Shown piece after piece: positions 13,143 through 63,647 of a DNA stretch of 64,000 nt (position 1 is the stretch's first letter; every line of letters starts with the position of its first letter). The position numbers were made by a program, and so were the translations under genes. The stretch comes from Pedobacter yulinensis (GTDB lineage Bacteria > Bacteroidota > Bacteroidia > Sphingobacteriales > Sphingobacteriaceae), in assembly GCF_003029735.1 (NCBI RefSeq), contig NZ_KZ686269.1:248001-312000 (forward strand), given 5' to 3'. The notes under the pieces were generated by a model. It did not search any database, was not told the DNA's origin, and saw nothing but the letters and a program-made list of their open reading frames with translations.

Positions 13143-13277
13143 GGTACAAAACATATCAAAGATATACGAATCGCGCTTATTGTAATAGGCAAGCCCCGGG
13201 TCTGCAGCGCTTTCGGCGACAGCCGCCCGGTCTAAAAAGCGATCCAGCGCTTCATTTGAGTAAAACAACTTACCCTA

Positions 13278-13336
13278 AATGAGATAAATCGACAAAAAGA
13301 TGAACAGAATAAAAGCTTGTCTTTGATTTATTTTGA
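13278..13336 (+). promoter_or_regulatory. PUL A promoter element upstream of susC
   Basis: The second copy of the 59-base element seen before GH105. TGA cores lie at 13280 and 13301 (21 bp apart), CGACAAA at 13290-13296 and TTATTTTG at 13328-13335, all at the same relative positions as in the other copy. Sequence similarity stops abruptly after the -7-like box, as expected for a promoter. It points toward susC. Confidence 0.6.
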
Positions 13337-13635
13337 GAACAGGCTGGTGTTCGTACCAGAAGAACCCCGGCCGACTTGAAACCAAACTATAAACCAAATT
13401 TACACGCGGGCCCCCTTGCCGGTTACCCCGGGCTGGAAAACGTGAGACGAACTGCTATGAAGCCAATACATGCCAATAATCTTAATTGTCCTTTTGCCGG
13501 GTCGTGCCATAGCTACGTCTGGCAGATCCCTTACTAGCTTTCCAATTCTGAAGCTCAATATCCGGGGCCATATGGCTGTGCTCTTGCAACAAGGATTTTG
13601 AAAGTCGCCTGATTAAACAACGAAAACCAAATATT
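13337..13635 (+). other. Long untranslated leader of PUL A susC
   Basis: If the -7 box at 13328-13335 is used, transcription starts near 13343 and the susC leader is about 290 bases. It begins with a small stem-loop CTGGT / ACCAG (13344-13359). No convincing gene is present; the only ATG-initiated frame noted (26 codons from 13456) is unremarkable. The leader ends in AAACCAAATATT directly before the susC ATG. Confidence 0.45.
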
Positions 13636-16600
13636 ATGACCAATAATTACGCTTTTTTACTGAATGGCATAACGACAAAACGGTTGGGCCTTGCCCTTCT
13701 GTTGTGCGTGTTCATGCTGCCAGTGGCTGTTCTGGCGCAAACGAGACCCCTTAAGGGGCTTGTGACCGATGCGCGAACGGGCGAGGCCCTGCCTGGAGTT
13801 ACCGTCCGCATCCAGAATACGACCACTGGCACCAGCACCGACGACAACGGTGCTTTCAGCCTGCAGGTTGGTTCTGCAGCAGTTCTGACCGTGTCTTATG
13901 CCGGTTATGAGTCTCAAACCATTGCGGTGGGTAACCGGAATGAGATCAATATTAAACTGGCCGGCACCACCGAAACGTTAGAGGATATCGTCGTTATCGG
14001 TTACGGCGCCATGAAGAAAAAGGACCTGACCGGATCGATTTCACAAATCCGGCCGGATAAGATTGCAGCCGAGAACCCGAATACCACGCAGGATATCTTG
14101 CGCGGCACACCGGGTGTAACCGTCGGACTCGATGCCTCGGCGAAAGGAGGCGGGACCATCCGCATCCGCGGTCAGCGCTCGGTTTACACCGATGGTGGTC
14201 ACAACGACCCTTTGATTGTACTGGACGGGACCATTTTTTACGGTGAGTTGTCAGAGATCAATCCTGATGACATTGACCAGATTGATGTACTGAAAGACGC
14301 ATCGGCTGCCGCCGTGTTTGGGGCAAAATCGGCGAACGGCGTGCTGATCATCACCACCAAAAGGGGGCAGAAAGGCAAACCGCGTATCAGCATCACCTCA
14401 AACCTGGGCATGACGACCATGGGCGCAAACCGCCCCGTTTTCGGGCCTGAGGGCTACCTGCGATATCGCCAGGACTGGTTTACTTCAGGCACGTACGGAC
14501 TAAATTCCGCCACCGGCAATTACGAGGCTTATCAAAATACCTCGCAGCCCAACCGCGCCTACTACGAATCGCCTATCGCCGCCAACCTGGCCCGTTACGG
14601 GGTTTCGTTAGACCAATGGCGCGCGTATACAACAAATACACCCGGCCTGTCTGATCAGGAAATATGGGCAAAACGCCTGTTGCTGGACGGTGTAACGCTT
14701 AAAAATTTTGCCAACGGGCAAAGTTTTGACTGGTATGACCACAGTTTCCGCACCGGTCTCAACAATGACCACAACATGAGCGTGTCGGGGGCAGGCGACC
14801 GGATGACCTATTACATGTCGCTCGGGTACCTTTCGAACCAGGGGGTAGCGGTAGGAAATAACTACACCTCCATCCGGTCTAATTTAAAAGTTGAAGGCAA
14901 AGTAACCAACTGGCTCGACATCGGTGCCAATGTTAACTTTCAGCAGCGTACAGATGGTGACCTGGCCGTAGACTGGGACCGGCAAATCCGCTCGAACTCT
15001 CCCTTTGCCAGCTACCAGGATGAAAACGGCAATCTCCAGGTAAACCCGATGGGCGATACATTTGTACCCAACCGGGGCTTTAATTATGATTTTGACCGGC
15101 AGTACCGCGACCTTGATAAAGGTTATACGGTATTAAACACCATTCTGACGGCAAAAGTCAAACTTCCTTTTAACATTACCTATTCATTCAACGGCGCACC
15201 GCGTTATCAATTTTTCCATGACCGGTACTGGGAATCAGCGAGCCATCCCAACTGGAAGGCAACCAACGGCCTTGTCAACCGAGAATCCACCCAGCGTTTT
15301 GACTGGTCGCTGAACAATACGCTGAACTGGGACCATACATTCGCCCAGAAACACCGCGTTAACATCACCCTGGTACAGGAAGCTGAACAAAGACAGCGGT
15401 GGACCGACAGGATCGAGGCCAGAAACATTTTGCCAAGCGATGTGCTCGGTTATCATGAAACGTACTACGGTGACAAGAACCGGAGCAGCTACGATACCGA
15501 CGACGTAAAAGAAACGGCAGACGGCATGCTTGCCCGCCTGTTCTATTCATTCAACGACCGGTATATGCTCACCACATCGGTACGCCGCGACGGTTACTCG
15601 GCTTTTGGGTCGTCCAATCCGCGGGCCACGTTTTTCTCGACTGCTTTCGCCTGGACCTTTACCAACGAGAAGTTCTTCAGGTGGAAACCGATGAACAGCG
15701 GTAAGCTTCGCCTGTCATGGGGGCAAAATGGAAACCGGTCTTTGGCCAACCCGTACCTGGCACTCGCCAATCTTGGGGCAGGAGCCGGTGCTACCATGGG
15801 TTACATCGACGCCAGCGGCAACCTGATCCAGTACCGTTACCTGATGATGGATCGCCTTGCCAATCCGCAGCTCAGCTGGGAAAAAACCGAAGCCTTTAAT
15901 GCCGGTCTTGACTTTGGCTTTTTTGACAACCGGATCACGGGAAGTTTTGATTACTACATCACGCCGACCGTGGATATGATCATGAACCGCTCCCTGCCTG
16001 ATTTTGCGGGGGTTGGGAACATCACTACCAATTTGGGTAAAGTGGAAAACAGGGGGTTTGAAATTGCCCTGAACTCGCAAAACATGCGCAGCAAAAACTT
16101 TTCCTGGAATTCTACATTCGGATTTTCGAAATACAAAAACACGATCAAAAATCTGTATTACATCTACGACAATGTTCTGGATGCAAACGGCAATGTTATC
16201 GGCGTAAAAGAGCGGGACGACATTTCCAACCGCTGGTTTATAGGCCAGCCGATCGATGCGATCTGGGACTACCGCGTAACAGGAATCTGGCAGGCAAATG
16301 AGGCGCAAGAGGCCCAGCGCTTTGGTCAGCGCCCGGGCGATCCCAAAGTTGCCAATACCTATACTGCCGACGACCGTGTAAACGCAGACGGCAGCATAAC
16401 CCCGGTTTACAACAACAACGACAGGGAGTTTCTCGGGAGAACCAATGCACCGATCATGATGTCGCTCAGGAATGACTTCAGCTATAAAAACCTCAGTTTT
16501 TCTTTCAACCTCTATTCATACTGGGGCCACAAAAGCCTTAACGGCGCGTACCTGAACCAGACAAACGGCGGCTCGGAATTTACCTACCTGTGGAACGCTT

Positions 16601-48690: not shown

Positions 48691-49758
48691 TTAGGGATTG
48701 GCTGCACGTACGATAATTTTTCCTGCGGAAAACTCCAGGTGTACAAGGCCTGTTGCCTGGAGCATCTCGAGTACTTTCGAAAGATTTTGTGACCTGGAAA
48801 TGGTTCCCTCCAGGCCACCGTCGGGCACAGGACCACGGTAAACAACATCAACGTCATACCAGCGGCTGACCTTTTGCATCACTGAACGGATGTCTTCGTC
48901 GTGAAAACTGAAATACCCGAGCTTCCAGTCAATGGCTTCCCGGGCATTGACCTCCTTAATTACTGTACCGCCGGGCGATGCGGCGAGTTCCTGCCCCGGG
49001 CTGAGCAGCCGGATCTGGCGGGAATGATACTCTGAAACCTTTATACTGCCCTGCAGCAAGGTGACTTTGCTGGTGCCTTCGTCTCGGTAAGACGAAACGT
49101 TGAAACGGGTACCGAGCACCTCAATCTCCTGCGATGCCGTACGTACGCGAAAAGGCTTCAGTTTGTTGTGCGCGATTTCGAAATAGGCTTCACCCTTTAA
49201 TAAAACCTTGCGCTCTTTGCCGGTAAACCTGGCCGGAAAGGTTAGGGAGGAGTAAGCATTGAGCCAGACCCTGCTGCCATCGGGAAGCTGGAAATGATAC
49301 TGGCCGCCCCGCGGGGTGGCAATGGTCCGGTAGCCTTGAACCGCATCCCCCGGTTTCAGGTCGTCTGTATGCCGGCCGTCTTGTGCGGCATCCAATTCGA
49401 TCCGGTCGCCATTGGCGAGGACCAGCTCAGCGCGTGTTTTTCCCGGCATCACATCGCCGGGCGCCCGCAACCGGTCCTGACCGATGTCAAAACGATAGAC
49501 ACCCAGACCTGCAACCACCACAACCATCGCGGCAACCGCCCATTTGTACCAGGCCGTGGAGCGACCCGGCCTGCGGTTTTTTGCCTGTATCCGGCTCCAA
49601 ATTTCGGCCTCGACAGTTTCATAGTTGTATTCGGGCAGCTCATCGCGCTGTTTTTTTGCATGTTGCAGGTACCAGTCCTCTACGGTTGCGCGTTCCTCTG
49701 CGTTACAGCGGCCTGCACGGTATCTGGCTATGAGTTGTTCTAAATTTTTTTGTTCCAT
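48691..49758 (-). CDS. FecR-family anti-sigma factor (PUL B)
   Basis: 355 residues. A cytosolic N-terminal domain (YRAGRCNAEERATVEDWYLQ), one transmembrane helix (WAVAAMVVVVAGLGVYRF, about 71-88), then the periplasmic FecR domain (TPRGGQYHFQLPDGSRVWLN, FTGKERKVLLKGEAYFEIAH, VLGTRFNVSSYRDEGTSKVT) and a DUF4974-like C-terminal part (YFSFHDEDIRSVMQKVSRWY). It holds the ECF sigma factor inactive until the STN domain of the SusC protein signals ligand transport. It lies 131 bases after the sigma gene. Confidence 0.95.
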   Translation of the reverse strand: MEQKNLEQLIARYRAGRCNAEERATVEDWYLQHAKKQRDELPEYNYETVEAEIWSRIQAKNRRPGRSTAWYKWAVAAMVVVVAGLGVYRFDIGQDRLRAPGDVMPGKTRAELVLANGDRIELDAAQDGRHTDDLKPGDAVQGYRTIATPRGGQYHFQLPDGSRVWLNAYSSLTFPARFTGKERKVLLKGEAYFEIAHNKLKPFRVRTASQEIEVLGTRFNVSSYRDEGTSKVTLLQGSIKVSEYHSRQIRLLSPGQELAASPGGTVIKEVNAREAIDWKLGYFSFHDEDIRSVMQKVSRWYDVDVVYRGPVPDGGLEGTISRSQNLSKVLEMLQATGLVHLEFSAGKIIVRAANP

Positions 49759-49889
49759 GCAGGCGATGGTCTTTGATCTTGGTTATAAAGTAAGACAGGG
49801 AGGTCCGGGCCTGGGAGTACCCCGGATGAAAAAAAAGTCCGGCCTGCCGGATCCCGGCGAACCGCTGCGCACAGATCGGTGCCATCGTA

Positions 49890-50462
49890 TTACAGAAAGG
49901 AGAATAAATGATATAAAGGTCCGAGCCTGAGCCGCAGCACTTTGATGGCTTTTACGATCTGCTTTTTAACCGTTTTGTCTGAAATGTCGAGTTGAGCCGC
50001 AATTTCCTTGTGGCTCAGGTTATCTTTGCGGCTTAATTCAAAAACACAGCGCATTTTCTGTGGCAACCTGGCTATTTCCTGCTCGATGAGCGCAGCCAGC
50101 TCACGCTCCCTTAGCAGGTAGTCGGTCTTGCTTTCGGCAGCACTGATGGGGTGGGGCAGTGTGCTCAGGTGTACTTGCTGTACCCGACCGCGGTCAAAAA
50201 GATTCAGGATTTTGTTGCGTGTCGCGGCATAGAGATAACCGGCAACGTCTGTATTGATCTCGATGGCCGGCACGCGGCTCCACAGCGTCGTGAATACGTC
50301 CTGCACCACATCTTTTGCTTCTTCTTCATTGTGCAGCATTTTTCTGGCATGCTTATACAACAGGTACCAATAACGCTGGTACAGCTCTTTGTATGCGGCC
50401 TGGTCATATCCTTTGATCAGGTTAATCAGTTCACTATCTGTACATGACCGGTAAATTTTCAT
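49890..50462 (-). CDS. ECF-type RNA polymerase sigma factor (PUL B)
   Basis: 190 residues. Region 2: YKELYQRYWYLLYKHARKML followed by EEAKDVVQDVFTTLWSR. Region 4: LPQKMRCVFELSRKDNLSHK then EIAAQLDISDKTVKKQIVKA, the -35-reading HTH. It is the first gene of the PUL B operon and is expected to direct transcription of the susCD-enzyme genes downstream when released by FecR. A perfect leftward -7 box TAGATTTG lies at 50477-50484, only about 15 bases before the start codon. Confidence 0.95.
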   Translation of the reverse strand: MKIYRSCTDSELINLIKGYDQAAYKELYQRYWYLLYKHARKMLHNEEEAKDVVQDVFTTLWSRVPAIEINTDVAGYLYAATRNKILNLFDRGRVQQVHLSTLPHPISAAESKTDYLLRERELAALIEQEIARLPQKMRCVFELSRKDNLSHKEIAAQLDISDKTVKKQIVKAIKVLRLRLGPLYHLFSFL

Positions 50463-51303: not shown

Positions 51304-51455
51304 GGGGAACGCTGATGTAAGCCGGGCTTGTGCTGCCCGGAAGACCGCTTCGAAGCTTTTAAACAATGGCCCGGTAACCCGCTTCGGCAGTGGCGCAGGC
51401 CGGGCCGGTTTGGCGCAGCACCCATTCCGCCTGCATGGCAGTCTCCCCGGCCGTC

Positions 51456-51525
51456 ATTTCAGACTATTTTGAACCAATTTCAGGCAAAAACGAACACATT
51501 TGTACGCCGGCCGGTGCTACCTTGC
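51456..51525 (+). promoter_or_regulatory. PUL C promoter element upstream of GH16
   Basis: ATTTCAGAC (51456-51464) and ATTTCAGGC (51477-51485) are direct repeats exactly 21 bp apart, followed by CGAACAC (51491-51497). The 42-base block matches 56908-56949 at 33 of 42 positions. A -7-like TACCTTGC starts 62 bases from the block start, the same offset as TACATTTG in the other copy. It is inferred to be an HTCS binding site plus core promoter. Confidence 0.7.
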
Positions 51526-51545
51526 AGTACCCAAACCACACACAA

Positions 51546-52805
51546 ATGCACGGTTCAAAACTTTTAATCCTGTCCGGCCTGATCCTTGCGCTCGCCGCAC
51601 ACCCCGTTTCAGAAGCAAAGGCTTCGAACGGTTTTCCAAGCCCTGGGGCAAGCAAACTTTTAGCCGTCGCCGACACCTCGGCCCGCAGGATCGCGGCTGC
51701 GGACTGGCGATTGGTGTTTTCAGACGAGTTTAGGTCGGCCGGCAAGTTTAATGCAGGCAGCTGGACCTATTGCGAGCGGGGATCAGCCGCCTGGACCAGG
51801 TACCTCACCTCATCGCCTGATTATGTTTACCAGGCCGGAGGCAACCTGGTGCTGCGTATGGACAATGCCATCATTGCCGGCGATGCAGTTCCTTACCATT
51901 CGGGCGGCATCATGACATCCTCAAAGTTCAGCATCCGTTATGGCAAAATCGAAGTCAGGGCACGCTTCAGCAAAGGCAAGGGTTCGTGGCCGGCCATCTG
52001 GATGATGCCTGAACTGCCAACCGCCTATGGTGGCTGGCCAAACAGTGGCGAAATCGATATCATGGAACATGTGAACAACGAAAATGTCGTGCACCAAACC
52101 ATCCATAACAGCGCGGTAACCAACGAAAAAGGAGCCAGTACTGCTACGCACCAGGCTTCTTACCATGCTGATGATTACAATACATACGGCATTGTCTGGA
52201 ACCCCGGGTCGATTGAATTTTATGTGAATGGCGAACACCAGTATACCTACAAAAAGGAAACTGCAGCGGGTTCGAAACAATGGCCTTTTGACCGGCCGTT
52301 TTATATCATTTTAAACCAGGCCGGCGCTGTGGGCTGGCCGGGACCCGCGAACAATGCAGACCTTCCTTTTGAAATGAAGGTAGACTGGGTCAGGGTGTAC
52401 AAACAGCAGGAACTGCCTAACCCCGGCTTCGAGCAGGCCGGACTGGGGCCCTGGCAGGCTGGAGCGGGTGCAAAGGTCGTCAGGGCGCATGCCCGTAGCG
52501 GAGGTCGCGCGGTTCGCCTGAAGGGCGGGGCTTCCATTTTAGCGCAGACCATCGGCGGGCTTCTGCCCAACACAACCTATACGTTTGGAGGCTATGTCCG
52601 GACCAACACCAGCAGTCCTTCCTTGCTGCTCGGGGTAAAGAACTACGGTGGTTCTCCGGCAGAAACCCCGATAGCGGGCAAAAAGTACCAGCACGGCCTG
52701 GTTACCTTCACGACCGGGGCGCAGCAAACCTCGGCCACCGTTTACATTTCGAAGCCGGAAGCCGGAACGGCTTATGCAGACGATTTTTATCTGAACAAAC
52801 AGTAA
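51546..52805 (+). CDS. GH16 endo-beta-glycanase with C-terminal carbohydrate-binding module (PUL C)
   Basis: An exported enzyme of 419 residues. Signal peptide MHGSKLLILSGLILALAAHP; GH16 domain about 50-285 with catalytic GEIDIMEH (nucleophile Glu169, Asp171, acid/base Glu174), WPAIWMMPELP and the closing MKVDWVRVYKQ. A CBM4/9-like beta-sandwich (290-419; NPGFEQAGLGPWQAGAG, PNTTYTFGGYVRTN) follows. ExDxxE-type GH16 enzymes include laminarinases and endo-acting enzymes on other beta-glycans. The ATG at 51546 is preferred over an open frame to 51390 because the promoter lies between. A sequence element shared with the PUL C susC promoter ties it to that regulon, although it is on the far side of the HTCS gene. 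Confidence 0.9.
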   Translation: MHGSKLLILSGLILALAAHPVSEAKASNGFPSPGASKLLAVADTSARRIAAADWRLVFSDEFRSAGKFNAGSWTYCERGSAAWTRYLTSSPDYVYQAGGNLVLRMDNAIIAGDAVPYHSGGIMTSSKFSIRYGKIEVRARFSKGKGSWPAIWMMPELPTAYGGWPNSGEIDIMEHVNNENVVHQTIHNSAVTNEKGASTATHQASYHADDYNTYGIVWNPGSIEFYVNGEHQYTYKKETAAGSKQWPFDRPFYIILNQAGAVGWPGPANNADLPFEMKVDWVRVYKQQELPNPGFEQAGLGPWQAGAGAKVVRAHARSGGRAVRLKGGASILAQTIGGLLPNTTYTFGGYVRTNTSSPSLLLGVKNYGGSPAETPIAGKKYQHGLVTFTTGAQQTSATVYISKPEAGTAYADDFYLNKQ

Positions 52806-52824
52806 CCTATATCCAAACCACGGT

Positions 52825-52861
52825 AGGGGCTTAGGGATCTATTCCGGCCCCTTCTATTTTT
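52825..52861 (+). terminator. Terminator between convergent GH16 and HTCS genes
   Basis: Stem AGGGGC / GCCCCT (52825-52830 and 52847-52852) with a 16-base loop, followed by T-rich CTATTTTTC (five T at 52857-52861). It is a moderate rightward terminator for GH16; it overlaps the HTCS stop codon region. Confidence 0.5.
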
Positions 52862-55800
52862 CTTGCCTGACTGTGTTCTTCTGCCTGTAATGAGTGGGCG
52901 TAGTTTGGTAGACCTGCTTAAACACAGTGCTGAAATATCGTTGGTTCGAAAAGCCCACAGCGTCTGCAATATCCATAATACTCTTATCAGTATGTACCAG
53001 CAGGTAGGCGGCTTTCTCGAGCCTGAATTTGTTGATGTAATCGTTTACGCCGATGTCGGCTATGTTTTTCAGTTTGCTATAGAGCGTTGCCCGGCTCATG
53101 GCCATTTTATCGGTTAAAAACTCCACATGCAGCTGTTCATTATCCAGGTTGTTCGTAATGAGGTCATTCAGTTTACGCATAAATTCTTCATCCGCCCGGC
53201 TAAACGTTCCGTCTTGGGGTGCGGTAAACAGCGCTGAACTTTTATACCTGGCCTTTACAGCTTCCCGGTTTCTCAGCAGGTTTTCCAATAGTGTTTGCAG
53301 GAAATCTAGCTCAAAGGGTTTTGCCACATAGGCGTCAGCACCCAGTTTATATCCAAGGTTCCGGCTGTCCGCGTCTCCCTGGGTGGTCAGCAATACAATG
53401 GGAATGTGGCTCACCTGGATATCATTTTTCAGTCGTTTGCATAACTCGAAGCCGTCTATTCCAGGCATCATGACATCGCTTACCACGATATCGGGGCCGT
53501 GGCTGGTTACAAGATCAAGTGCCTCCAACCCGTCCGCAGCGTCATAGACTGAAGCAAAATAGGGCTTAAGGCTTTCAACCAGGAAAGTACGCAGCTCAGA
53601 CTGGTCTTCGACGATCAGCAACGTGTGGCCGGCCGTCTCAAATTGTTGAATTACAGGCGACTGGCTGATGACATCGAGGTTACGCACAGCAGCTGCGGGC
53701 ATTTCGGCCGAAGCATGATCCGGCTCCAGGCTGGCGGGCAGCTCAAAATAAAACGTTGCGCCCTTGTTTTTATTCGGTGTTGCGCCAATGCGTCCGCCGT
53801 GCATTTCGACCAGGATTTTCGAAAAAGAAAGGCCAATTCCGCTTCCATGTTCATGGTGCACCCCCTGGTAAAACGGCCTGAACAACTGGTTTACATCTAC
53901 ATGGTCCAGCCCGATGCCCTCGTCGGTAACTGCAACCCTGAAAAAACCGCCGGCTTGTGCTGTGCTGATGGTCAGGTTCGTATTGGCTTCGCTGAATTTT
54001 AAAGCGTTGGCAAGCAGGTTGGTCAGAACCAGCGCACATTTTTTATCATCAAAAACAGCTGAGGTGATCGATTCGTCAAACCGGTAGATCATGCGTATCC
54101 TCCTGTCCTCAAACTCTGTTTCAAAATTCTCGGTTATCTTTCTGACCCAGTTGTTCAGCTGCAGCCGCTGCAGGTTCAACCGTTCCTGTCCAAGTTCTAT
54201 TTTCCGCACATCGAGCACCATGTCGATCATTTCTTTCATGTGTCCCGCCTGTTTGTAGACGCCCGCGAGCTTCCGTTTCAGTTCTACGTCCATGTCTTGC
54301 TGGCGAAGCAATCGTTGCAAAGGCGAATAAATAAGTGTTAAGGGTGTTCTCAGTTCATGACTGATGTGAATCAGGAAGCGTATCCTGGCCTCATAGCTCT
54401 TTTGCTCGTGTTCCTTCATGTCCCATTGCAATTTTCGTTCTCTCTTGGCGATGGCGGTGCGGTACAGCAGAACGACAGCGGCGGCGACGATAAACAGAAC
54501 CAAAGCAATAAACCAGAAGCTTCTGAACCAGGGCGGATTTACATCAACCTTAAGCACTTCTGCATAGTTGCTCCAGCCGCCATTTCTCAGGCTGCAGGAT
54601 ACCAGGATCCGGTAGTTACCTGGCGGCAGGGAGCCGAGGGCAAGCTGATGATTGTAGGTCTCAATGACCTGGCTGCGCAGACCGCTGATCTGGTACCGGA
54701 ACATTTTTTTTCTGAAAACGTCCTTTTCCCGGGCCATGACTTTGATCACCAAAGAGCTGTGGTTCCATGGAATACTGATATGATTCGGCTGTGCCCTTAC
54801 ATTTTCCGGTAAAGGAACACCGTTCAGTTCAAGGCTCATCAGGCTGATGGCGGGTGGGTCGGCCGTAACGGAGGGAATGTCTTTTTTAATATGCAGGAGT
54901 CCCTTCACGCCACCCAGGTATACGTCTCCGCTTGAAGCAACAAGAGAGGGCTTGAAGAGAAATTCATTTGGGATCACGCCGTCAGACTCGCCGAAGGCGG
55001 CAAATTTGTTTTGCTGCGAGACGTACAGAAACACCATGTTCTGTGCGCCGATCCAGAGCTTACCCGCACTGTCGGCGACCAGCGCCGAAACCTCGTCGAA
55101 CAGGCTGGTTCCCACCTGCTTCGTTACGTTCGTTGCCGGATCAAAACGCATAAGTCCGTCGCGGTTGCCGATCCAGAAAATCCCGCGCCTGTCTCTCGCC
55201 ACGGCCGTAATGGGGTTTTCATTGGCCGGAACGGTCAGGATTGTCCTGACCCGGTTGCTGGCATGGTGCAGCTCAAAAATTCCGTACGAGCTAAAGAAAT
55301 AAGTGTATTGCCTGTTCGAAGCAATCTTCAGGAGGGAGCTGTAAACGCGCCGGTCATGCTTAAAGTTAACCTTTGAAAAAACACCTGAAGCAATGTTGTA
55401 GTGGAAGATATCGCCCGTAAAAAGGTAAAGGTCGTTTTCAGATACCCTGTTTACATTCACCGCGATCCCCGAAGACCGGATGGTTGCACCCCTGGGGTTG
55501 ATCTGCCCATCATGAAAAGGCCGTACTGTACCTGCTGCTTTGTTGAAAAGATATAGCCCTTTGCTGAAGGCCGAAATAAGCAGGTGGTCCGAATCGTAGT
55601 TTGTTACGGATGCGATTTTGAAGCCAAACGTAGCCGGATAGTGGCGAACTGTAAAGTGAACAGGATCGAAACGGTTAATGCCCCCGCCGTCTGTTCCGAC
55701 CCACAACACGCCTGACTTGTCTTCACAGGTACTAAGCACCGTTTTTTCACTAAGCCCATAAACGCTGCCCAGGGGGGCATCCTTATAGGTGTTGATAAAC

Positions 55801-56801
55801 GCTTTGCGGATGGAAATCAATCCGCCCCTGACGCTTCCTGCCCAGAGATTGTCTTCCTTGTCATGGTAAAGGCTCAGGATCGAATTTTCAGGAAAGGACG
55901 TGGCGTTACCAGGTATGTGTTTGAGGACCGAAAAATTCCTGCTTTGCAGGTCAAAGATATTGATGCCGCCGCCATCAGTGGCAATCCACAACTGGCCCTT
56001 AAGACCAATGATATCAAGCACTACATCGCTGCTGATCGCCGAGTTACGCGTGTTGTAATGAACAAGCGTTTTGCCCTGCCTGCTGTAAGCCCTGATACCC
56101 TGCCCGTAAGGCGCAACCCACAGCTGCTGGCGCTCGTCTACATGTACGGCCATGATTTCCTTTTCGGCGATAGCCGTAAAGCGTAAAAGCAGGCGGTTCC
56201 GGGCATCATACGTCCATATTCCATTTCGGCGGGTATATAAAACAACAGTCTGGTCATGCCACAGTTTCATGCCTGTAAAGGCATCGTCGCTTTTTTCGCG
56301 TATGGTAACAGGTAAAGGCCGGACTTTTCCGTCAGCAAACGCGTACGCATAGAGCGTGCCGTCGCCGCCGAACAGAACGGCATGAGGCAACTCCAGTGCG
56401 GAGCGGGCCAACAAAGGACGGTTTCTATGCCTGATTACCTTAAAATTGTCTTTAACGGGGTCATAAACGGCCAGGCCATTTTCAGTGCCCACCCAAATGG
56501 TACCCCGCCGGTCTTCCATGATGAAACTGATCTGGTTGCCCGGAATGCTGTTGGGATTATTTTTCCGGTACACGTAACTTTTCAGGCTGTACCGGTCGAA
56601 CCGGTTCAGGCCCGATTTCGTACCGATCCAGATGAAACCGTTCCGGTCGTTCAGCATACAGCGTACAGTCGACTGCGTCAATCCTTCGCTCAGCGATAGT
56701 TGCTTGAATGTGTAGCCCTGGTTGGCCCCGGCCGGTGCCAGGTAACACAGGAAAGAAAGCGCAAGGAACAAACAGGTTGTTCTAAGTTTGAATTTTGCCA
56801 A
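52854..56801 (-). CDS. Hybrid two-component system sensor-regulator (PUL C)
   Basis: A 1315-residue fused regulator. It starts with TTG (no in-frame ATG nearby), giving signal peptide AKFKLRTTCLFLALSFLCYLA. Periplasmic propeller repeats (WIGTKSGLNRFDRY, WVGTDGGGINRFDP) run to about residue 680, then a Y_Y_Y domain, a transmembrane helix (FWFIALVLFIVAAAVVLLY), and a kinase with ISHELRTPLTLI (His815), NLLANALKFS and GSGIGLSFSKIL. A receiver (phospho-Asp near 1109, IVVSDVMMPGIDGFE) and AraC HTH domain (MAMSRATLYSKLK, IADAVGFSNQRYFSTVFKQ) complete it. Oligosaccharide binding in the periplasm should activate GH16 and susCD through the direct-repeat elements flanking this gene. Confidence 0.95.
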   Translation of the reverse strand: MAKFKLRTTCLFLALSFLCYLAPAGANQGYTFKQLSLSEGLTQSTVRCMLNDRNGFIWIGTKSGLNRFDRYSLKSYVYRKNNPNSIPGNQISFIMEDRRGTIWVGTENGLAVYDPVKDNFKVIRHRNRPLLARSALELPHAVLFGGDGTLYAYAFADGKVRPLPVTIREKSDDAFTGMKLWHDQTVVLYTRRNGIWTYDARNRLLLRFTAIAEKEIMAVHVDERQQLWVAPYGQGIRAYSRQGKTLVHYNTRNSAISSDVVLDIIGLKGQLWIATDGGGINIFDLQSRNFSVLKHIPGNATSFPENSILSLYHDKEDNLWAGSVRGGLISIRKAFINTYKDAPLGSVYGLSEKTVLSTCEDKSGVLWVGTDGGGINRFDPVHFTVRHYPATFGFKIASVTNYDSDHLLISAFSKGLYLFNKAAGTVRPFHDGQINPRGATIRSSGIAVNVNRVSENDLYLFTGDIFHYNIASGVFSKVNFKHDRRVYSSLLKIASNRQYTYFFSSYGIFELHHASNRVRTILTVPANENPITAVARDRRGIFWIGNRDGLMRFDPATNVTKQVGTSLFDEVSALVADSAGKLWIGAQNMVFLYVSQQNKFAAFGESDGVIPNEFLFKPSLVASSGDVYLGGVKGLLHIKKDIPSVTADPPAISLMSLELNGVPLPENVRAQPNHISIPWNHSSLVIKVMAREKDVFRKKMFRYQISGLRSQVIETYNHQLALGSLPPGNYRILVSCSLRNGGWSNYAEVLKVDVNPPWFRSFWFIALVLFIVAAAVVLLYRTAIAKRERKLQWDMKEHEQKSYEARIRFLIHISHELRTPLTLIYSPLQRLLRQQDMDVELKRKLAGVYKQAGHMKEMIDMVLDVRKIELGQERLNLQRLQLNNWVRKITENFETEFEDRRIRMIYRFDESITSAVFDDKKCALVLTNLLANALKFSEANTNLTISTAQAGGFFRVAVTDEGIGLDHVDVNQLFRPFYQGVHHEHGSGIGLSFSKILVEMHGGRIGATPNKNKGATFYFELPASLEPDHASAEMPAAAVRNLDVISQSPVIQQFETAGHTLLIVEDQSELRTFLVESLKPYFASVYDAADGLEALDLVTSHGPDIVVSDVMMPGIDGFELCKRLKNDIQVSHIPIVLLTTQGDADSRNLGYKLGADAYVAKPFELDFLQTLLENLLRNREAVKARYKSSALFTAPQDGTFSRADEEFMRKLNDLITNNLDNEQLHVEFLTDKMAMSRATLYSKLKNIADIGVNDYINKFRLEKAAYLLVHTDKSIMDIADAVGFSNQRYFSTVFKQVYQTTPTHYRQKNTVRQEK

Positions 56802-56907
56802 GCTGTCTATAATTACAGGAGATAAAGATAAGCAACGGCGGGTGTAAACATACCGCTAACAGGTTTATGCTTGCCTGAAATGGCATCACGATGCCGCGTT
56901 GCATCGA

Positions 56908-56977
56908 ATTTCAGACAATTTCGGAGCAATTTCAGACAGGAGTGAACACCCGTCGGTTGGCGGCCGCCCTACATTTG
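56908..56977 (+). promoter_or_regulatory. PUL C promoter element upstream of susC
   Basis: Direct repeats AATTTCAGAC (ATTTCAGAC at 56908 and 56929) spaced 21 bp, then GTGAACAC, and a perfect -7 box TACATTTG at 56970-56977. Geometry equals that at 51456-51525. The implied leader of susC is about 70 bases. The site lies in the 252-base region between the divergent HTCS and susC genes. Confidence 0.75.
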
Positions 56978-57053
56978 GTTAGGGAAAACAAGCACCCGGA
57001 GGCGCCCCGCTTCCGGCGTGCAATCAAACAGACTTTAACCAAATAAAATTATT

Positions 57054-60000
57054 ATGAAAGGTAGTATTACCATGCATCTATCCCGGCTATCGTATTTTGT
57101 TGCATTTACCGTTTGGTTGTTGCTGCCGCACCTGGCCGCAGCACAAACCCGTGTTGTAAAAGGCAAGGTAACAGATGGGACGAAAAACGCTGTAGTCGGC
57201 GCAACCCTGCAGATTGTAGGAACATCCCGTTATACAACCACCGATGGCGATGGAAATTTCAGCATCCAGTCGGCGGCGGCGACTGATATTTTAAAGGTCA
57301 GCTACACCGGGTTTGAAACCCAGCAAATTCCGCTTGCCGGCAAAACTGTTGTAAACATTACGCTAAACGAGCAGAACAACACCCTGGATAACGTTGTCGT
57401 GATCGGTTACGGAACCGTAAAAAAATCGGACGTGACGGGCGCCATTGCTTCCCTTAAACCCGAGGCAAATGATGCATCGAAATCATTATCTGTTGAGAAC
57501 CTGATGCAGGGCAAAATTGCCGGCGTCGCCGTTTCAGGGTCGGTGGCTGCCCCGGGAGCAGCTTCATCCGTGACCATTCGCGGTGCCAACTCACTCCGGG
57601 GCGACAACCAGCCGCTGTATATCATTGACAACATTCCACAGGCGTCTACAGGCTCAATGCCTGCAAGCGCACTTGGCGGAGGCGATTTCCAGATCCCGCA
57701 AAATCCGTTAACAAGCCTGAGCCCGGCTGATATCGAGGATATTCAAATCCTGAAAGACGCCTCTGCGACCGCAATCTATGGGTCGAGGGGTGCCAATGGT
57801 GTCATCATCATTACGACTAAAAAAGGCAAACAGGGTAAGCCAGCCATCAATCTCCGGACGAATTTTACTACGGCGCAGGCTACGAACCTGCGTGATATGC
57901 TAAGCCTGTCAGAATATGCCGCTTTTCGCAATGAACGCGCCGGCACGGCCGAAAAGCAATTTTACCAGGTTGGCGACGAGACGCGGTACGTGTTTTCGGG
58001 TCAAATATATGATGCCGCCAATCCCGCTACATTCCGCGCGGTCACAGAGCGGAACTGGCAAAAAGAAATTTACAGAAATGCGTTCTCCCAGAATTATGAA
58101 CTCTCGGTAAGCGGCGGCGAAAGCAAACTTAAATATTACCTGTCGGCAGACCACAAAGATATACAGGGTCTCGTGAAGCAAACAGGTTTGAAACAAACGG
58201 GTATGCGGCTCAACCTGAGCGGCAACCTGTCTCCGAAACTTACCTTCAATGCTTCGTTAAGCGGTGCCCTGAAAAAGAACAACATGATGAGCGGGGGCAA
58301 CTCGCGCGGTGGAGCAACTGGCTCCATTTCCAGAACGGCAATCGATTCTGCGCCCTTCGAAATTCCGGCCGACGATCCCTTTCTGCTCAATAACGAAGAA
58401 AATAGGACGACAACGCTGTCATGGCTCAACGATTATGATGACCTGACCGACGAAAAATCCGCGCGGGCAGCCGCAGATCTAACCTGGAAAATTTCCAGGA
58501 ATTTTTCTTATAACGTGCGCGGAGGTGGAAACATAATGATCCAGGACCGTGCGCGGTGGTATGGCGTGCAGTTATTTCAGGGACTAAATAATAACGGGCT
58601 TCTCGGACTTAGCAAACTGAACAACAATAATTACACCCTGGAAAACCTGGTCAACTACACAGGCGAAATCAAAAAGCTCGTTACGGTGAACGCGACAGTA
58701 GGTGTTACTTACGATGACTACAACTGGCTGAGCCATTCAACCACCGGAACCAATTTCCAGTTTAAGAACCTGCGCACCAATGGGCTTCACATGGCCTCGA
58801 TCATCAACGAACTGCAGCCGATGCAGCGTGACTACCAGCTCCTGTCTTACCTGACCAGGTTAAACCTGTCATTTCTTGACGGCAAATACCTGGCTACAAT
58901 AACCGCGAGGGCTGATGGCAGCAGCAAATTCAAAAAAGAGAACCGCTGGGCCCTGTTCCCTTCTTTTGCGCTGGCCTGGCGGGCAGACCAGGAAGCCTGG
59001 CTCAAAGAAGCGAGCTGGTTGGACCAACTTAAGGTGCGCCTTGGCTACGGCAAAACCGGCAGCCAGTCGATCTCGCCCTACAACAGTTTTTACAACTACA
59101 GCCAAACCATTGATTACGCTACCGCTATGGGCGTCAGGGCAATGGCCATTGCCGTCAGCAACCTGCAGAACAGCGACCTGAAGTGGGAAACGACGACCGC
59201 TTACAATGCCGGTATCGATTTCGGATTCTGGAAGGGCAGGCTCACCGGAACGCTCGACGCCTATTATAAAGAGACCAGCGACCTGCTGATTGAAAAAAAC
59301 CTGCCAAGCTCAACCGCTTTTGGCGCCATCACGATGAACCAGGGCGCACTCAGCAACCGCGGGATTGAACTGTCACTTTCTTCAGAGCTGATCAGGAATG
59401 AGGACTTCAACTGGAGCATTTCAGGAAACATCGGAATCAACAGGGCCAGAATCATCGAACTCGGCCTGCCGGTAACGCAGTTTGGCAGCGAGATGTACAG
59501 GGCTTACCTGGGCAATTCGATCGGCGACCATTTCGGTCCCGCGAACATCTTCATCATGGGCAAAGCACCGGGTCTTTTCTTTGGTTACAAGACCAACGGT
59601 ATCATTCAGGCCGGGGAGACGGTTCCTGCTTCAAGCATTTTCAACCAGTCGGCAGGGAACATCAAAGTTGTAGATGTTAATGGCGATGGCGTCATCAATG
59701 TAAATGACAGGACCATTATCGGCGACCCGAACCCAGATTTCAACTACGGTTTTCAGACGGCCCTGGAGTACAAACGGCTTCGGTTCTCGGCATCATTTTA
59801 CGGAGTAAGCGGCGGAGATGTATTAAATGGCAATGTGCGCTACGAGCAGACGCCCTCACAGCAAACCGGTAACATGATCAGTGCTGCTTACCTGGGTGCC
59901 TGGCGGCCATCGGCACCCTCGAACCTGTATCCTGGTATCAACAGCGTACTGCAGAATGTCATTTACGACCGGTATGTCGAAGACGCAAGTTTTCTGCGCT

Positions 60001-60227
60001 GCAGTGACATTACCCTTGCTTATACGCTGCCCGGCAAAACCTTTAACAATAAACTCGGGAACGTGAACATGTTCGCTTCGGTAAAAAACGCTTTTCTGAT
60101 CACTGATTATTCCGGTTATGATCCGGAGATGAGAACGTTCCCTTTCGATGGCCTGAGGCCGAGTATCGACCTGAACTCCTTTTCAAATCCCCGCCAGTTC
60201 GTATTGGGTCTTAACATTACTTTTTAA
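57054..60227 (+). CDS. SusC-like TonB-dependent outer-membrane transporter (PUL C)
   Basis: 1057 residues. Signal peptide (FVAFTVWLLLPHLAAAQ); regulatory-like domain (VKGKVTDGTKNAVVGATLQI, about 34-105); plug (VVVIGYGTVKKSDVTGAIAS, SVTIRGANSLRGDNQPLYII, SRGANGVIIITTKKG); barrel ending PRQFVLGLNITF. There is no STN domain, consistent with HTCS control. It pairs with the SusD gene 8 bases downstream. The enzymes around it (GH20, sulfatase, GH16) point to a sulfated, hexosamine-containing glycan. Confidence 0.96.
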   Translation: MKGSITMHLSRLSYFVAFTVWLLLPHLAAAQTRVVKGKVTDGTKNAVVGATLQIVGTSRYTTTDGDGNFSIQSAAATDILKVSYTGFETQQIPLAGKTVVNITLNEQNNTLDNVVVIGYGTVKKSDVTGAIASLKPEANDASKSLSVENLMQGKIAGVAVSGSVAAPGAASSVTIRGANSLRGDNQPLYIIDNIPQASTGSMPASALGGGDFQIPQNPLTSLSPADIEDIQILKDASATAIYGSRGANGVIIITTKKGKQGKPAINLRTNFTTAQATNLRDMLSLSEYAAFRNERAGTAEKQFYQVGDETRYVFSGQIYDAANPATFRAVTERNWQKEIYRNAFSQNYELSVSGGESKLKYYLSADHKDIQGLVKQTGLKQTGMRLNLSGNLSPKLTFNASLSGALKKNNMMSGGNSRGGATGSISRTAIDSAPFEIPADDPFLLNNEENRTTTLSWLNDYDDLTDEKSARAAADLTWKISRNFSYNVRGGGNIMIQDRARWYGVQLFQGLNNNGLLGLSKLNNNNYTLENLVNYTGEIKKLVTVNATVGVTYDDYNWLSHSTTGTNFQFKNLRTNGLHMASIINELQPMQRDYQLLSYLTRLNLSFLDGKYLATITARADGSSKFKKENRWALFPSFALAWRADQEAWLKEASWLDQLKVRLGYGKTGSQSISPYNSFYNYSQTIDYATAMGVRAMAIAVSNLQNSDLKWETTTAYNAGIDFGFWKGRLTGTLDAYYKETSDLLIEKNLPSSTAFGAITMNQGALSNRGIELSLSSELIRNEDFNWSISGNIGINRARIIELGLPVTQFGSEMYRAYLGNSIGDHFGPANIFIMGKAPGLFFGYKTNGIIQAGETVPASSIFNQSAGNIKVVDVNGDGVINVNDRTIIGDPNPDFNYGFQTALEYKRLRFSASFYGVSGGDVLNGNVRYEQTPSQQTGNMISAAYLGAWRPSAPSNLYPGINSVLQNVIYDRYVEDASFLRCSDITLAYTLPGKTFNNKLGNVNMFASVKNAFLITDYSGYDPEMRTFPFDGLRPSIDLNSFSNPRQFVLGLNITF

Positions 60228-60235
60228 CGATTGTC

Positions 60236-61972
60236 ATGAAAAATTTAACACGCATCACATACATGGGCCTGGTGGCCCTGGCCCTCACGTCGGCTTCCTG
60301 CAAAAAAGCCCTCGACGAAGACCCCCGGTATTCGATCAACAGCAAAACCGCATTTGAAACAGAAAGCACAGCCAACCTGGCACTGGCAGGCTGCTATGGA
60401 TACATGACCACATACAATGCCTATGGTCAGGGAGTGCCGGAAATCATGGTTGGAGGCTCTGGCCTGGGCTGGGCACAGACCAACGGCCAGGATCAGGACA
60501 TGTTTGCTTCGCTGAATGTACCAGCCACAAACGGTACCGTGTCGATGATCTGGTCGGGCTGGTACAAAGTGATCGGCGAATGCAATTACTTCATCAGCAG
60601 CCTGGAGCAAAGCCAGCTCGGCACGGCCTATAAGAAACAGGCCATTGCCGAAGCCAAATTTTTACGCGCCTTATGTTATTTCAACCTGGCTAACGTATTT
60701 GGCGGTGTACCGCTGCGCCTGGAGCCGACAACATCGGCCAGTATCGCTAAAGGCAGGGCAACACGCCAGGAGGTGTATGCCCAGGTTGAAAAGGACTGGC
60801 TTGAAGCTGCCGAAAACCTGGCCACAAAAGAACAATTGGGTGCCGCCGCAGCAGGGAAAGCGACTAAATATGCCGCGTTCGCCTACCTTGCCAAATTGTA
60901 CTGGATGCTTGGCAGCCAGGAGAACGTGAGCACTTCTCCTTACTGGGCAAAGGCCAAACAAATGGGCGACCGGGTCATTGAACAGGGTAATTATGCGCTT
61001 GCCCCAAAATTCGGATCGCTCTTTGCCAACAGCGTGAGCAATTCACCGGAGTCGATCTTCCAGCTGAACTTTTCTTCGGTATCAACCTATGTAGGCAACC
61101 GGGGAAACTGGCTCTTTGCACCGTCTAACACCACAACTGGCATCAGCTGGGGCCGCGTGAAGGTATCGAAGGCGTTTTACGATCAGTTCAGGGGTACCTA
61201 TCCGGATGATCCGCGGCTGAAGCTGAGCATCGCCGCAACCTATGTGCAGTCGAAGACAAACAACTTCCGCATGTTCTCGTATCCATATCTTTCCGGTCCG
61301 GGGGGTGTGAATGCAACGGCCATTGATTCGGTTCGCTATGCGGCACTGGCCGATCCTACCAACCCGAAAGTGGATGAAATTTCACCGGCAATGAAGGCCG
61401 CCTATGTAGACCGAAACGGCGACCACCAGGGCTGGCCCTATTTTATCAAGGCCATGGATGTCAACTCGACTGCCCAGAACAGCAACAAACACGCGATGAT
61501 TTTCCGGTATGCGGATTTTCTGCTGCTCATGGCAGAAGTGGAAAATGAACTGAACAACAACGCGAAGGCCCGCGAGTATATGAACCTGGTCCTGACCCGC
61601 GCGCGCAACTCGGGAACAACGCCTTCCGTTTATCCGAAAAACCTGACTGCCGCTGTTCCGCAGAATGAGCTGCGAACCCTGATCTTTAACGAACGGCTGT
61701 TCGAGCTGGCAGGGGAGTATGAAATGTATGTCGATGTACGGCGTCGCGGGGTTGACTACCTGAAACTGGTGGTAGACCGGCACAACAACCACCACCTGAC
61801 CAAGGCGTTTGTCGCTTCGGCTGCGGCCAGCAACAACAATACCCCATTCAGGGAGCGGATGCTGCCTAACAGCCCTGAATTACTGCGGAAGAACCTGCTG
61901 CTGCCCATTCCCCAAAATGAACTGAATACCAACGAAGGCCTGTCGGCAGATCAGCAGAATTATGGCTACTAG
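60236..61972 (+). CDS. SusD/RagB-like surface glycan-binding lipoprotein (PUL C)
   Basis: 578 residues. Lipobox LALTSASCKKAL with Cys lipidation; N-terminal ESTANLALAGCYGYMTTYNA; TPR core with KQAIAEAKFLRALCYFNLAN and VFGGVPL; RYADFLLLMAEVENELNNNA; FNERLFELAGEYEMYVDVRR; and a C-terminal LLLPIPQNELNTNEGLSADQ. It should cap the SusC barrel encoded just upstream and bind the target glycan at the cell surface. The following GH20 gene begins 16 bases later. Confidence 0.96.
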   Translation: MKNLTRITYMGLVALALTSASCKKALDEDPRYSINSKTAFETESTANLALAGCYGYMTTYNAYGQGVPEIMVGGSGLGWAQTNGQDQDMFASLNVPATNGTVSMIWSGWYKVIGECNYFISSLEQSQLGTAYKKQAIAEAKFLRALCYFNLANVFGGVPLRLEPTTSASIAKGRATRQEVYAQVEKDWLEAAENLATKEQLGAAAAGKATKYAAFAYLAKLYWMLGSQENVSTSPYWAKAKQMGDRVIEQGNYALAPKFGSLFANSVSNSPESIFQLNFSSVSTYVGNRGNWLFAPSNTTTGISWGRVKVSKAFYDQFRGTYPDDPRLKLSIAATYVQSKTNNFRMFSYPYLSGPGGVNATAIDSVRYAALADPTNPKVDEISPAMKAAYVDRNGDHQGWPYFIKAMDVNSTAQNSNKHAMIFRYADFLLLMAEVENELNNNAKAREYMNLVLTRARNSGTTPSVYPKNLTAAVPQNELRTLIFNERLFELAGEYEMYVDVRRRGVDYLKLVVDRHNNHHLTKAFVASAAASNNNTPFRERMLPNSPELLRKNLLLPIPQNELNTNEGLSADQQNYGY

Positions 61973-61988
61973 GTCCGTAACAGCATTT

Positions 61989-63647
61989 ATGAGAATAACA
62001 AAAGCCTTTCACACGATCCTGTTCGGTTGCCTGTTCTTGCACTTGACCGGTACAGCCTCAGCCCAGGTTAAGATCATTCCAGAACCCGTTAGAATGGAAA
62101 TGGGTGAAGGTCATTTTATCCTGGCTAAAAACGCCAGCATCTATTTCGATGCTAAAAACAGGGCACTGTCCAGGCAGGCAGCTTATCTGACCAATGTTGT
62201 TGCATCTGTTTCAGGGTTCCGTTTAAAGAATACAGGCAATAAGTCTCAAAGTCAGATCAGGCTGCTGATCGGGGCTGATCAGCTGCTTGGTGACGAAGGT
62301 TATCGCCTGCGCATCGATGCATCGGGCATCACAGTCGCTGCGAACAGCGATAAGGGCGCTTTTTATGCCCTCCAAACGCTCTTCCAGCTGATGCCTGCAA
62401 ACCGTACCAACGAAGCCATCCGGCTGCCGCTGCTCAACATTACCGATTATCCCCGCTTTAAATGGCGGGGCATGATGCTCGATGTAAGCCGGCATTTTTT
62501 CTCTGTCGAGGCGGTGAAAAGTTACATTGACCTGCTGGCCATGTATAAAATGAACGTCTTTCACTGGCACCTGACCGATTCAGAAGGCTGGCGGCTGGAG
62601 ATCAAAAAGTATCCGAAGTTGACGGGCATTGGTGCCTGGCGAAAGGAAATTCCCGGGAGCGTTTTTTACAAAAGCAAGCAGACACTGCCGGCTGATACGT
62701 TTCGTTATGGGGGTTATTACACGCAGGAACAGGCGCGCGAGGTTGTGCGTTATGCCGCTGCAAAAAACGTTACCGTTGTGCCCGAGATCGAAATGCCGGG
62801 CCATTCTGATGCTGCCCTTGCGGCCTATCCCGAATTGTCCTGTACAGGTTTGCAGCAGGAGGTAAGAAGCTCTTTTGGCGGTCAGCCCGAGGCGCTCGCC
62901 AACTACTGCGCAGGCAAAGAGCACAGCTTTGAATTTCTGCAGCAGGTATTGAAGGAGGTGATGGATGTCTTTCCCGGCCAGTACATTCATATTGGTGGTG
63001 ACGAAGTGAACAAAACCGGCTGGAAAAAATGTACCAACTGCCAGCGCCGCATCCGCACCGAAGGGTTGAAAGACGAGCACGGCCTTCAGAGTTATTTTAT
63101 AAAACGCATTGGGCGGTTCCTGACGGCAAATAACCGAAAGTTGCTTGGCTGGGACGAAATCCTCGAGGGAGGTCTCGCTCCTGATGCGACGGTAATGAGC
63201 TGGCGAGGCGAGGAAGGCGGTATTAAGGCAGCAAAAATGCACCACCCGGTGGTCATGGCGCCCGTCAAACCACTTTATTTTAACCGCTACCAGGCAGATA
63301 CGCTGGCCTACCAGCAGCCGCTCGCCGCTAAATTTTCGATCAATACACTGAAAGATGTGTATGATTATGATCCGGTGCCTGCAGAGCTGAACACAACCGA
63401 AGCCGCCTTCATCATCGGCGCCCAGGCCTGCATCTGGACCGAGTTTATCGGTTCGATGAAGGGCGTAGAGGAGATGGCGCTGCCGCGCATGCTTGCCCTG
63501 TCAGAAAGCCTGTGGACGCCAAAACCATTAAAAGACTGGCAGCAGTTTAATAAAAAGCTTTACTTTCATTCCAAAAGGCTGGGTGCGGCCGGCCGGAGTG
63601 TGTTTACCGCTGTCCCCCTCGTTTATGATAATTTACCAGTAAAATGA
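61989..63647 (+). CDS. GH20 beta-N-acetylhexosaminidase (PUL C)
   Basis: 552 residues, exported. Signal peptide [20 protein letters not shown] (cleavage near ASAQ); GH20b domain about 30-150 ([31 protein letters not shown]); catalytic barrel with [51 protein letters not shown] and [12 protein letters not shown] (Asp338-Glu339). All canonical GH20 motifs are intact. An ATG at 61962, overlapping susD, is possible, but 61989 begins the signal peptide. Its stop overlaps the sulfatase start as ATGA (63644-63647), indicating coupled synthesis and a joint substrate. Confidence 0.93.

Follow-up and report, generated by a model that had tools for sequence, protein, structure and literature searches.

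A predicted operator of a hybrid two-component regulator shared by the susC and GH16 promoters of a Pedobacter polysaccharide utilisation locus

Introduction

In a polysaccharide utilisation locus (PUL) of Pedobacter yulinensis, a gene for a hybrid two-component sensor/regulator (HTCS) lies between a gene for a family 16 glycoside hydrolase (GH16) and a susC gene, which raises the question of whether the regulator acts on both of its flanks and through which DNA element. The stretch analysed (the window) comprises 64,000 nucleotides of a 4.31-Mb genome assembled in 11 contigs (assembly GCF_003029735.1, contig NZ_KZ686269.1, positions 248,001 to 312,000), and the locus extends from about 51.5 kb onward with GH16, HTCS, SusC, SusD and GH20. 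An earlier note on this DNA described twin 42-bp blocks before GH16 and susC and proposed them as the operator of the intervening HTCS. Our comparison of the locus with its relatives leads us to predict, with a probability of roughly 0.88, that both blocks are operators of the HTCS encoded between them.

Results

The GH16-side block (51456–51497, forward strand) and the susC-side block (56908–56949, forward strand) agree without gaps at 33 of 42 positions, and direct comparison reproduces this and the other details given in the earlier note. Two repeats stand exactly 21 bp apart in each block, ATTTCAGAC twice at susC and ATTTCAGAC followed by ATTTCAGGC at GH16, and GAACAC closes both. The boxes on which the later comparison converges are AGAC (51461–51464), GAA (51471–51473), AGGC (51482–51485) and GAAC (51492–51495) on the GH16 side and AGAC (56913–56916), GGA (56923–56925), AGAC (56934–56937) and GAAC (56944–56947) on the susC side. 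A -7-like box follows at an identical offset, 62 bases past the block start and 26 nt after the start of GAAC: TACATTTG at 56970–56977 (forward strand) before susC fits TAnnTTTG completely, and TACCTTGC at 51518–51525 (forward strand) before GH16 has 4 of its 6 fixed bases. Both the -7 consensus and an uncertain -33 motif of Bacteroidota have been described (PMC7366714). With the other block set aside, the next-best 42-mer in the window matches the GH16 block at 27 and the susC block at 26 of 42 positions, and in 1000 Markov shuffles of both upstream regions (242 and 252 bp) the best match is at most 28, with a mean of 22.4, compared to the 33 observed. Over the 60 bp preceding each site identity is only 17%, and the blocks are therefore not part of a longer duplicated fragment. 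They lie 48 bp (GH16) and 104 bp (susC) from the start codons.

A search with the sensor part of the HTCS in 148 genomes, including its own, identified two further genomes with close orthologs, those of Pedobacter sp. N36a and P. rhizosphaerae, and P. polysacchareus came from an additional scan of named genomes; two further retrieved stretches repeat the N36a and P. rhizosphaerae loci and were not recounted. The HTCSs of these relatives are 64% (N36a), 56% (P. rhizosphaerae) and 67% (P. polysacchareus) identical to that of the window, and in a genome of another family the HTCS matches reach 37% and 33% only. GH16, HTCS, SusC, SusD and GH20 occur together in all three relatives. The GH16 gene of P. 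rhizosphaerae is inverted and lies downstream of the HTCS gene on the same strand, with its own site retained. The site is present without gaps before both orthologous targets wherever the HTCS is found, that is in 8 of 8 promoters (four susC and four GH16) of four Pedobacter genomes. In pairwise comparison, the susC promoters have a mean identity of 0.66 over the 46-bp operator, compared to 0.27 over the preceding 60 bp and 0.42 over the spacer; the corresponding values for the GH16 promoters are 0.55, 0.24 and 0.23.

The conserved unit consists of four short boxes, first noticed by eye across the promoters, with the final form RGAY-N6-RRA-N8-RGNY-N6-RAAC. The tandem direct repeat of about 21 bp seen in the window has a four-box grammar that is kept in the eight promoters. 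In all four susC promoters the -7 box fits TAnnTTTG and begins 26 nt after the start of GAAC. The repeat unit described in the earlier note stands as regards its spacing; its ATTTC part is not conserved, and the conserved unit is RGAY-N6-RRA-like and occurs twice. Used as a query on the ortholog loci, the ATTTCAGAC repeat of the window recovered no true site because that part is not conserved, and ATTTCAGAC is peculiar to the window genome.

A pattern drawn from three of the genomes, RRRY-N6-RRA-N8-RGRY-N6-RAAC, was then run on the fourth locus, that of P. polysacchareus (22,262 bases). It matches exactly twice, once before susC and once before GH16, with a -7-like box in the expected position at both; the expectation is 0.04 matches from a Markov model and 0.08 from the 5 matches in other HTCS loci totalling 1.37 Mb. 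With the -7-like box added as a condition, which was written after this locus had been seen, the counts are 2 in the locus and 0 in the 1.37 Mb. A two-repeat TTTCAG pattern with at most one mismatch gives 135 matches (7 exact) versus 32 for the control, and a single-half-site pattern run on the whole genome, with 937 matches versus 479 for the reversed control, is too loose.

Sequence models of the site were applied to whole genomes, where 150 first-look candidates per genome were scored (in the own genome 150 of 535 with a model of all eight sites and 150 of 548 with a foreign-only model). The eight-site model, which uses sequence only, gives the two window blocks 36.4 and 34.0 bits, followed by 15.5, 14.6, 13.0 and 10.6. 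Since it contains the window sites, a foreign-only model was built from the six sites of the other species, and in the 4.31-Mb genome it still scores the two window blocks highest, at 25.7 and 20.0 bits, with the next candidate at 14.2. The eight-site model likewise puts the known sites, which are in its training set, at the top in N36a (36.8 and 27.2 bits, next 16.1), P. polysacchareus (37.4 and 33.1, next 16.2) and P. rhizosphaerae (30.3 and 29.6, next 22.3, the last being a sister operator from another HTCS locus). With leave-one-genome-out weight matrices, the two sites are the best-scoring positions of the respective locus, at ranks 1 and 2, for each of the four genomes. Among 25 congeners without a sensor match at E ≤ 1e-120, 21 have no site at E ≤ 0.05, and the best site in the other four scores 19.5 bits. 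The earlier note had named many copies of the block at unrelated genes as an outcome that would count against it. Instead, the candidates scored in the own genome include two clear copies and a further, probable one upstream of a GH16 paralog, in keeping with a regulon confined to functionally related genes.

This third site (C2:1485703–1485742) is the 15.5-bit candidate of the eight-site model and ends 63 bp upstream of a second gene for a GH16 with a carbohydrate-binding module (L209:9807–11036, at about 1,485,800 on C2), whose product is 60% identical to the GH16 of the window and which lies 1.18 Mb away. All four boxes are present (AGAC, GAA, AGAC and GAAC). The site fits the earlier-fixed pattern including the box condition and is the sole match in the surrounding 19.9 kb. 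Its -7 place reads AATATTGT, which resembles the TATATTGT of the P. polysacchareus GH16 promoter, and with the foreign-only model it scores 12.9 bits, the sixth of seven. From these features it is probably, although not provenly, a third member of the HTCS regulon. The 14 loci with weaker matches in the other three genomes hold no GH16 relative, orthologs of the second GH16 not having been searched for there, and thus no counterpart of the third site is seen in them.

The HTCS (52854–56801, reverse strand) combines in a single protein a periplasmic Reg_prop/Y_Y_Y sensor, HisKA, HATPase_c, a receiver (Response_reg) and a C-terminal AraC-type helix-turn-helix (HTH) domain, HTH_18. All of these family matches exceed their cut-offs, Y_Y_Y marginally so (26.8 versus 26.6), and the gene adjoins genes of the susC/susD type. 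These encode a SusC/RagA family TonB-linked outer membrane protein (57054–60227, forward strand) and a SusD family lipoprotein (60236–61972, forward strand), and the start of a GH20 beta-hexosaminidase gene (61962–63647, forward strand) overlaps the end of susD. GH20 presumably forms one operon with susC and susD. On the reverse strand at 56863–56881, 62–80 bp upstream of the HTCS start and facing that gene, lies a lone half-site consisting of ATTTCAGGC, 6 nt and AAAC, which may possibly serve self-regulation of the HTCS; by eye it has no second half-site and no equivalent in the N36a locus.

The GH16 of the window (51546–52805, forward strand) has 419 residues, a C-terminal CBM_4_9 domain and, as judged by eye, a signal-peptide-like start. 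The open reading frame (ORF) listing also offers an upstream GTG at 51390, with which the block would become coding. This start is unlikely because the signal-peptide-like sequence begins after the ATG at 51546. The closest solved relative of the enzyme is 6t2r, followed by beta-1,3(4)-glucanases and laminarinases, and 6t2r is among the structures deposited by a paper on mucin O-glycanases (PMC7419316). With GH20 beside GH16, the substrate may be a glycan containing N-acetylglucosamine, and a beta-glucan is equally possible. Beyond GH16, at 48691–50462, genes for an extracytoplasmic function (ECF) sigma factor and FecR point away from it toward a second SusC/SusD pair.

Related spacing is also seen at other HTCS promoters. 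In P. rhizosphaerae, another HTCS locus has, around its own HTCS gene (L210:7771–11304, genome G010, contig C50), four promoters with a sister operator, GTACAAAA-N2-RAACC twice, 21 bp apart (forward strand, L127:5838 and 18959 and L128:3535 and 15062), the second copy in one of them reading GGACAAAA. A distance of 25 or 26 nt separates these operators from a -7-like box, which is an exact TAnnTTTG in three of the four. Across 77 other HTCS loci, ORFs of at least 200 codons show a faint excess of self-similarity at lag 21 (0.312 versus 0.265–0.292 at other lags, 188 boxes). For susC genes only, the excess is clearer, with 0.433 at lag 21 versus 0.229–0.357 at other lags, in a small set of 12 boxes from 10 of the 23 promoters. 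From 80 further Pedobacter regions, hand-picked among the matches listed, 28 with a divergent susC were kept and 52 without one were dropped; here 13 boxes in 10 promoters, partly orthologous, peak at lag 22 (0.474), with 0.38 at lag 21. The merged sets comprise 55 promoters, or 48 after removal of near-copies, and may still include orthologs of greater divergence. In the merged set, strong tandem repeats are seen at lag 22 in nine promoters (one of which repeats a -7-like box), at lags 20, 21 and 27 in two each and at six other lags in one, compared to 0.03–0.38 expected per lag, and 21 bp is therefore not universal. In the HTCS-adjacent susC promoters of eight loci (L130, L139, L141, L143, L145, L147, L155 and L185) we observe 22-bp tandem repeats, many of them GATTTTNACCC-like. 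The sister operators of the 21-bp type and the mostly 22-bp tandem repeats elsewhere thus indicate a geometry that is shared but not rigid.

Discussion

The proposal that the blocks are a candidate operator of the intervening HTCS is supported by their conservation at susC and GH16 in four genomes, by their top ranks in the genome scans and by an anatomy like that predicted for Bacteroides HTCSs. Likewise, the site before GH16 in four genomes supports the placement of this gene in the regulon of the PUL, named PUL C in the earlier note, from the far side of the sensor gene. The sequences, their conservation, the fixed spacing and the specificity in the genome scans are direct observations.

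Several observations weigh against this assignment. The three-genome pattern misses the GH16 site of P. rhizosphaerae and so captures 5 of the 6 source sites and 7 of 8 overall. It also matches the coding strand of the HTCS gene in the window (55468, reverse strand), -7-like box included, which we count against the specificity of the bare pattern. In the leave-one-out analysis, the scores of the left-out sites are reached by between 1 and 12 positions of a control of 3.64 million, which includes the sister operators and stretches fetched for resembling the site, and the genome-wide ranks hold for the candidates scored. None of the four GH16 promoters has an exact TAnnTTTG; they have degenerate boxes at or near the expected place. 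Several orthologs show weak self-similarity at lag 21: the value at lag 20 is higher in R_susC and R_GH16, and that at lag 19 in P_susC and P_GH16. Finally, the R1 search found no match in the stretches retrieved around the HTCSs of 37% and 33% identity from another family, and no such block is present in the intergenic region 13268–13636 beside another HTCS-like gene, recognised by eye.

The alternative that survives best, which we nevertheless consider improbable, is that the block is the operator of another regulator, such as the ECF sigma/FecR pair or another AraC-type or HTCS protein. Although the ECF and FecR genes lie on the far side of GH16 and similar operators occur at other HTCSs, tblastn (E 1e-10) finds no relative of the pair in the stretches retrieved from N36a, P. 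rhizosphaerae and P. polysacchareus, where the site is present, and in a longer N36a stretch the single ECF match, of 23.5%, lies past the end of GH20. Furthermore, the site accompanies the HTCS gene in all four genomes that have it, and a 21-bp tandem repeat upstream of a -7 box would resemble an activator site more than an ECF promoter. It is very improbable that the block functions at the RNA level, in a leader common to both transcripts: it is near both start codons, but it stands upstream of the -7 boxes and would therefore not be transcribed from those promoters, and its conserved boxes form two direct-repeat half-sites. Chance similarity, or a recently copied functionless promoter fragment, has a negligible likelihood in spite of there being just two clear copies in the own genome, given the excess over the shuffle maximum, the dissimilar flanks and the strong evidence from conservation at both genes in four diverged genomes with diverged flanks.

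As an HTCS operator, each block would comprise two direct-repeat half-sites 21 bp apart, and each half-site two short boxes (RGAY-like and RRA) about 10 bp apart, an arrangement that would fit two HTH units of one AraC-type domain touching successive major grooves. The periplasmic domain may sense the glycan, upon which the phosphorylated HTCS would occupy the operator as a dimer on one face of the DNA, immediately before the -7 box and close to the -33 region. The bound protein would then recruit RNA polymerase and thereby activate GH16 in concert with the susC-susD-GH20 operon, and probably also the second GH16 1.18 Mb away. Binding, dimerisation and activation are inferred, as are the points where transcription starts and the glycan that is sensed.

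This arrangement resembles that of AraC at araI1-I2, where two HTH units touch each of two direct half-sites, which are spaced by 21 bp and lie beside the RNA polymerase site. AraC differs in being a one-component sugar-binding regulator that acts at a sigma-70 promoter and recognises an unrelated sequence. Among HTCSs, tandem motifs on average 21 bp apart have been predicted for 16 proteins of Bacteroides thetaiotaomicron, with same-face dimers two turns apart proposed (Ravcheev et al. 2013, PMC3878776), and as a novelty the 21-bp rule consequently falls away. As in Pedobacter, these predicted operators are two-site direct repeats before genes of HTCS-adjacent loci and some of the regulons include a distant gene, for example BT4675, but the genus and the sequence are different (PMC3878776). 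Gel shifts show phosphorylation-dependent binding of the response-regulator parts of BT4124 and BT4663 to the bt4114 and bt4662 promoters (mBio 2024, PMC11253607). There, the binding of receiver and DNA-binding parts of HTCSs to susCD promoters is experimental (PMC11253607), and in Pedobacter such binding is predicted. Neither a fixed position relative to the -7 box nor a division of half-sites into two boxes was found in the available text of PMC3878776 and PMC11253607. A literature search, with coverage that lacks most subscription papers, returned no report on this operator or on Pedobacter HTCS operators. The type of switch is thus known from gut bacteria, and the Pedobacter case appears to be a further, well-supported example.

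Prior publication of the basic 21-bp rule limits the interest of this case. What it adds is an operator prediction, specific and open to testing, for an HTCS from beyond the gut Bacteroides, and it ties a glucanase-like GH16, and probably also its distant copy, to the same sensor as the sugar-uptake genes. The proposed box-level grammar and the fixed -7 distance could help to predict other HTCS targets. Tentatively, and at slightly under even odds, Pedobacter HTCS promoters may share one geometry, with two two-box half-sites at a spacing of 21 bp, or 22 bp for some classes, and a final box that begins 25–26 nt before the -7 box, the regulator replacing the -33 contact whatever its specificity. 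If this geometry were general, HTCS operators and regulons would become readable from sequence alone across the Bacteroidota.

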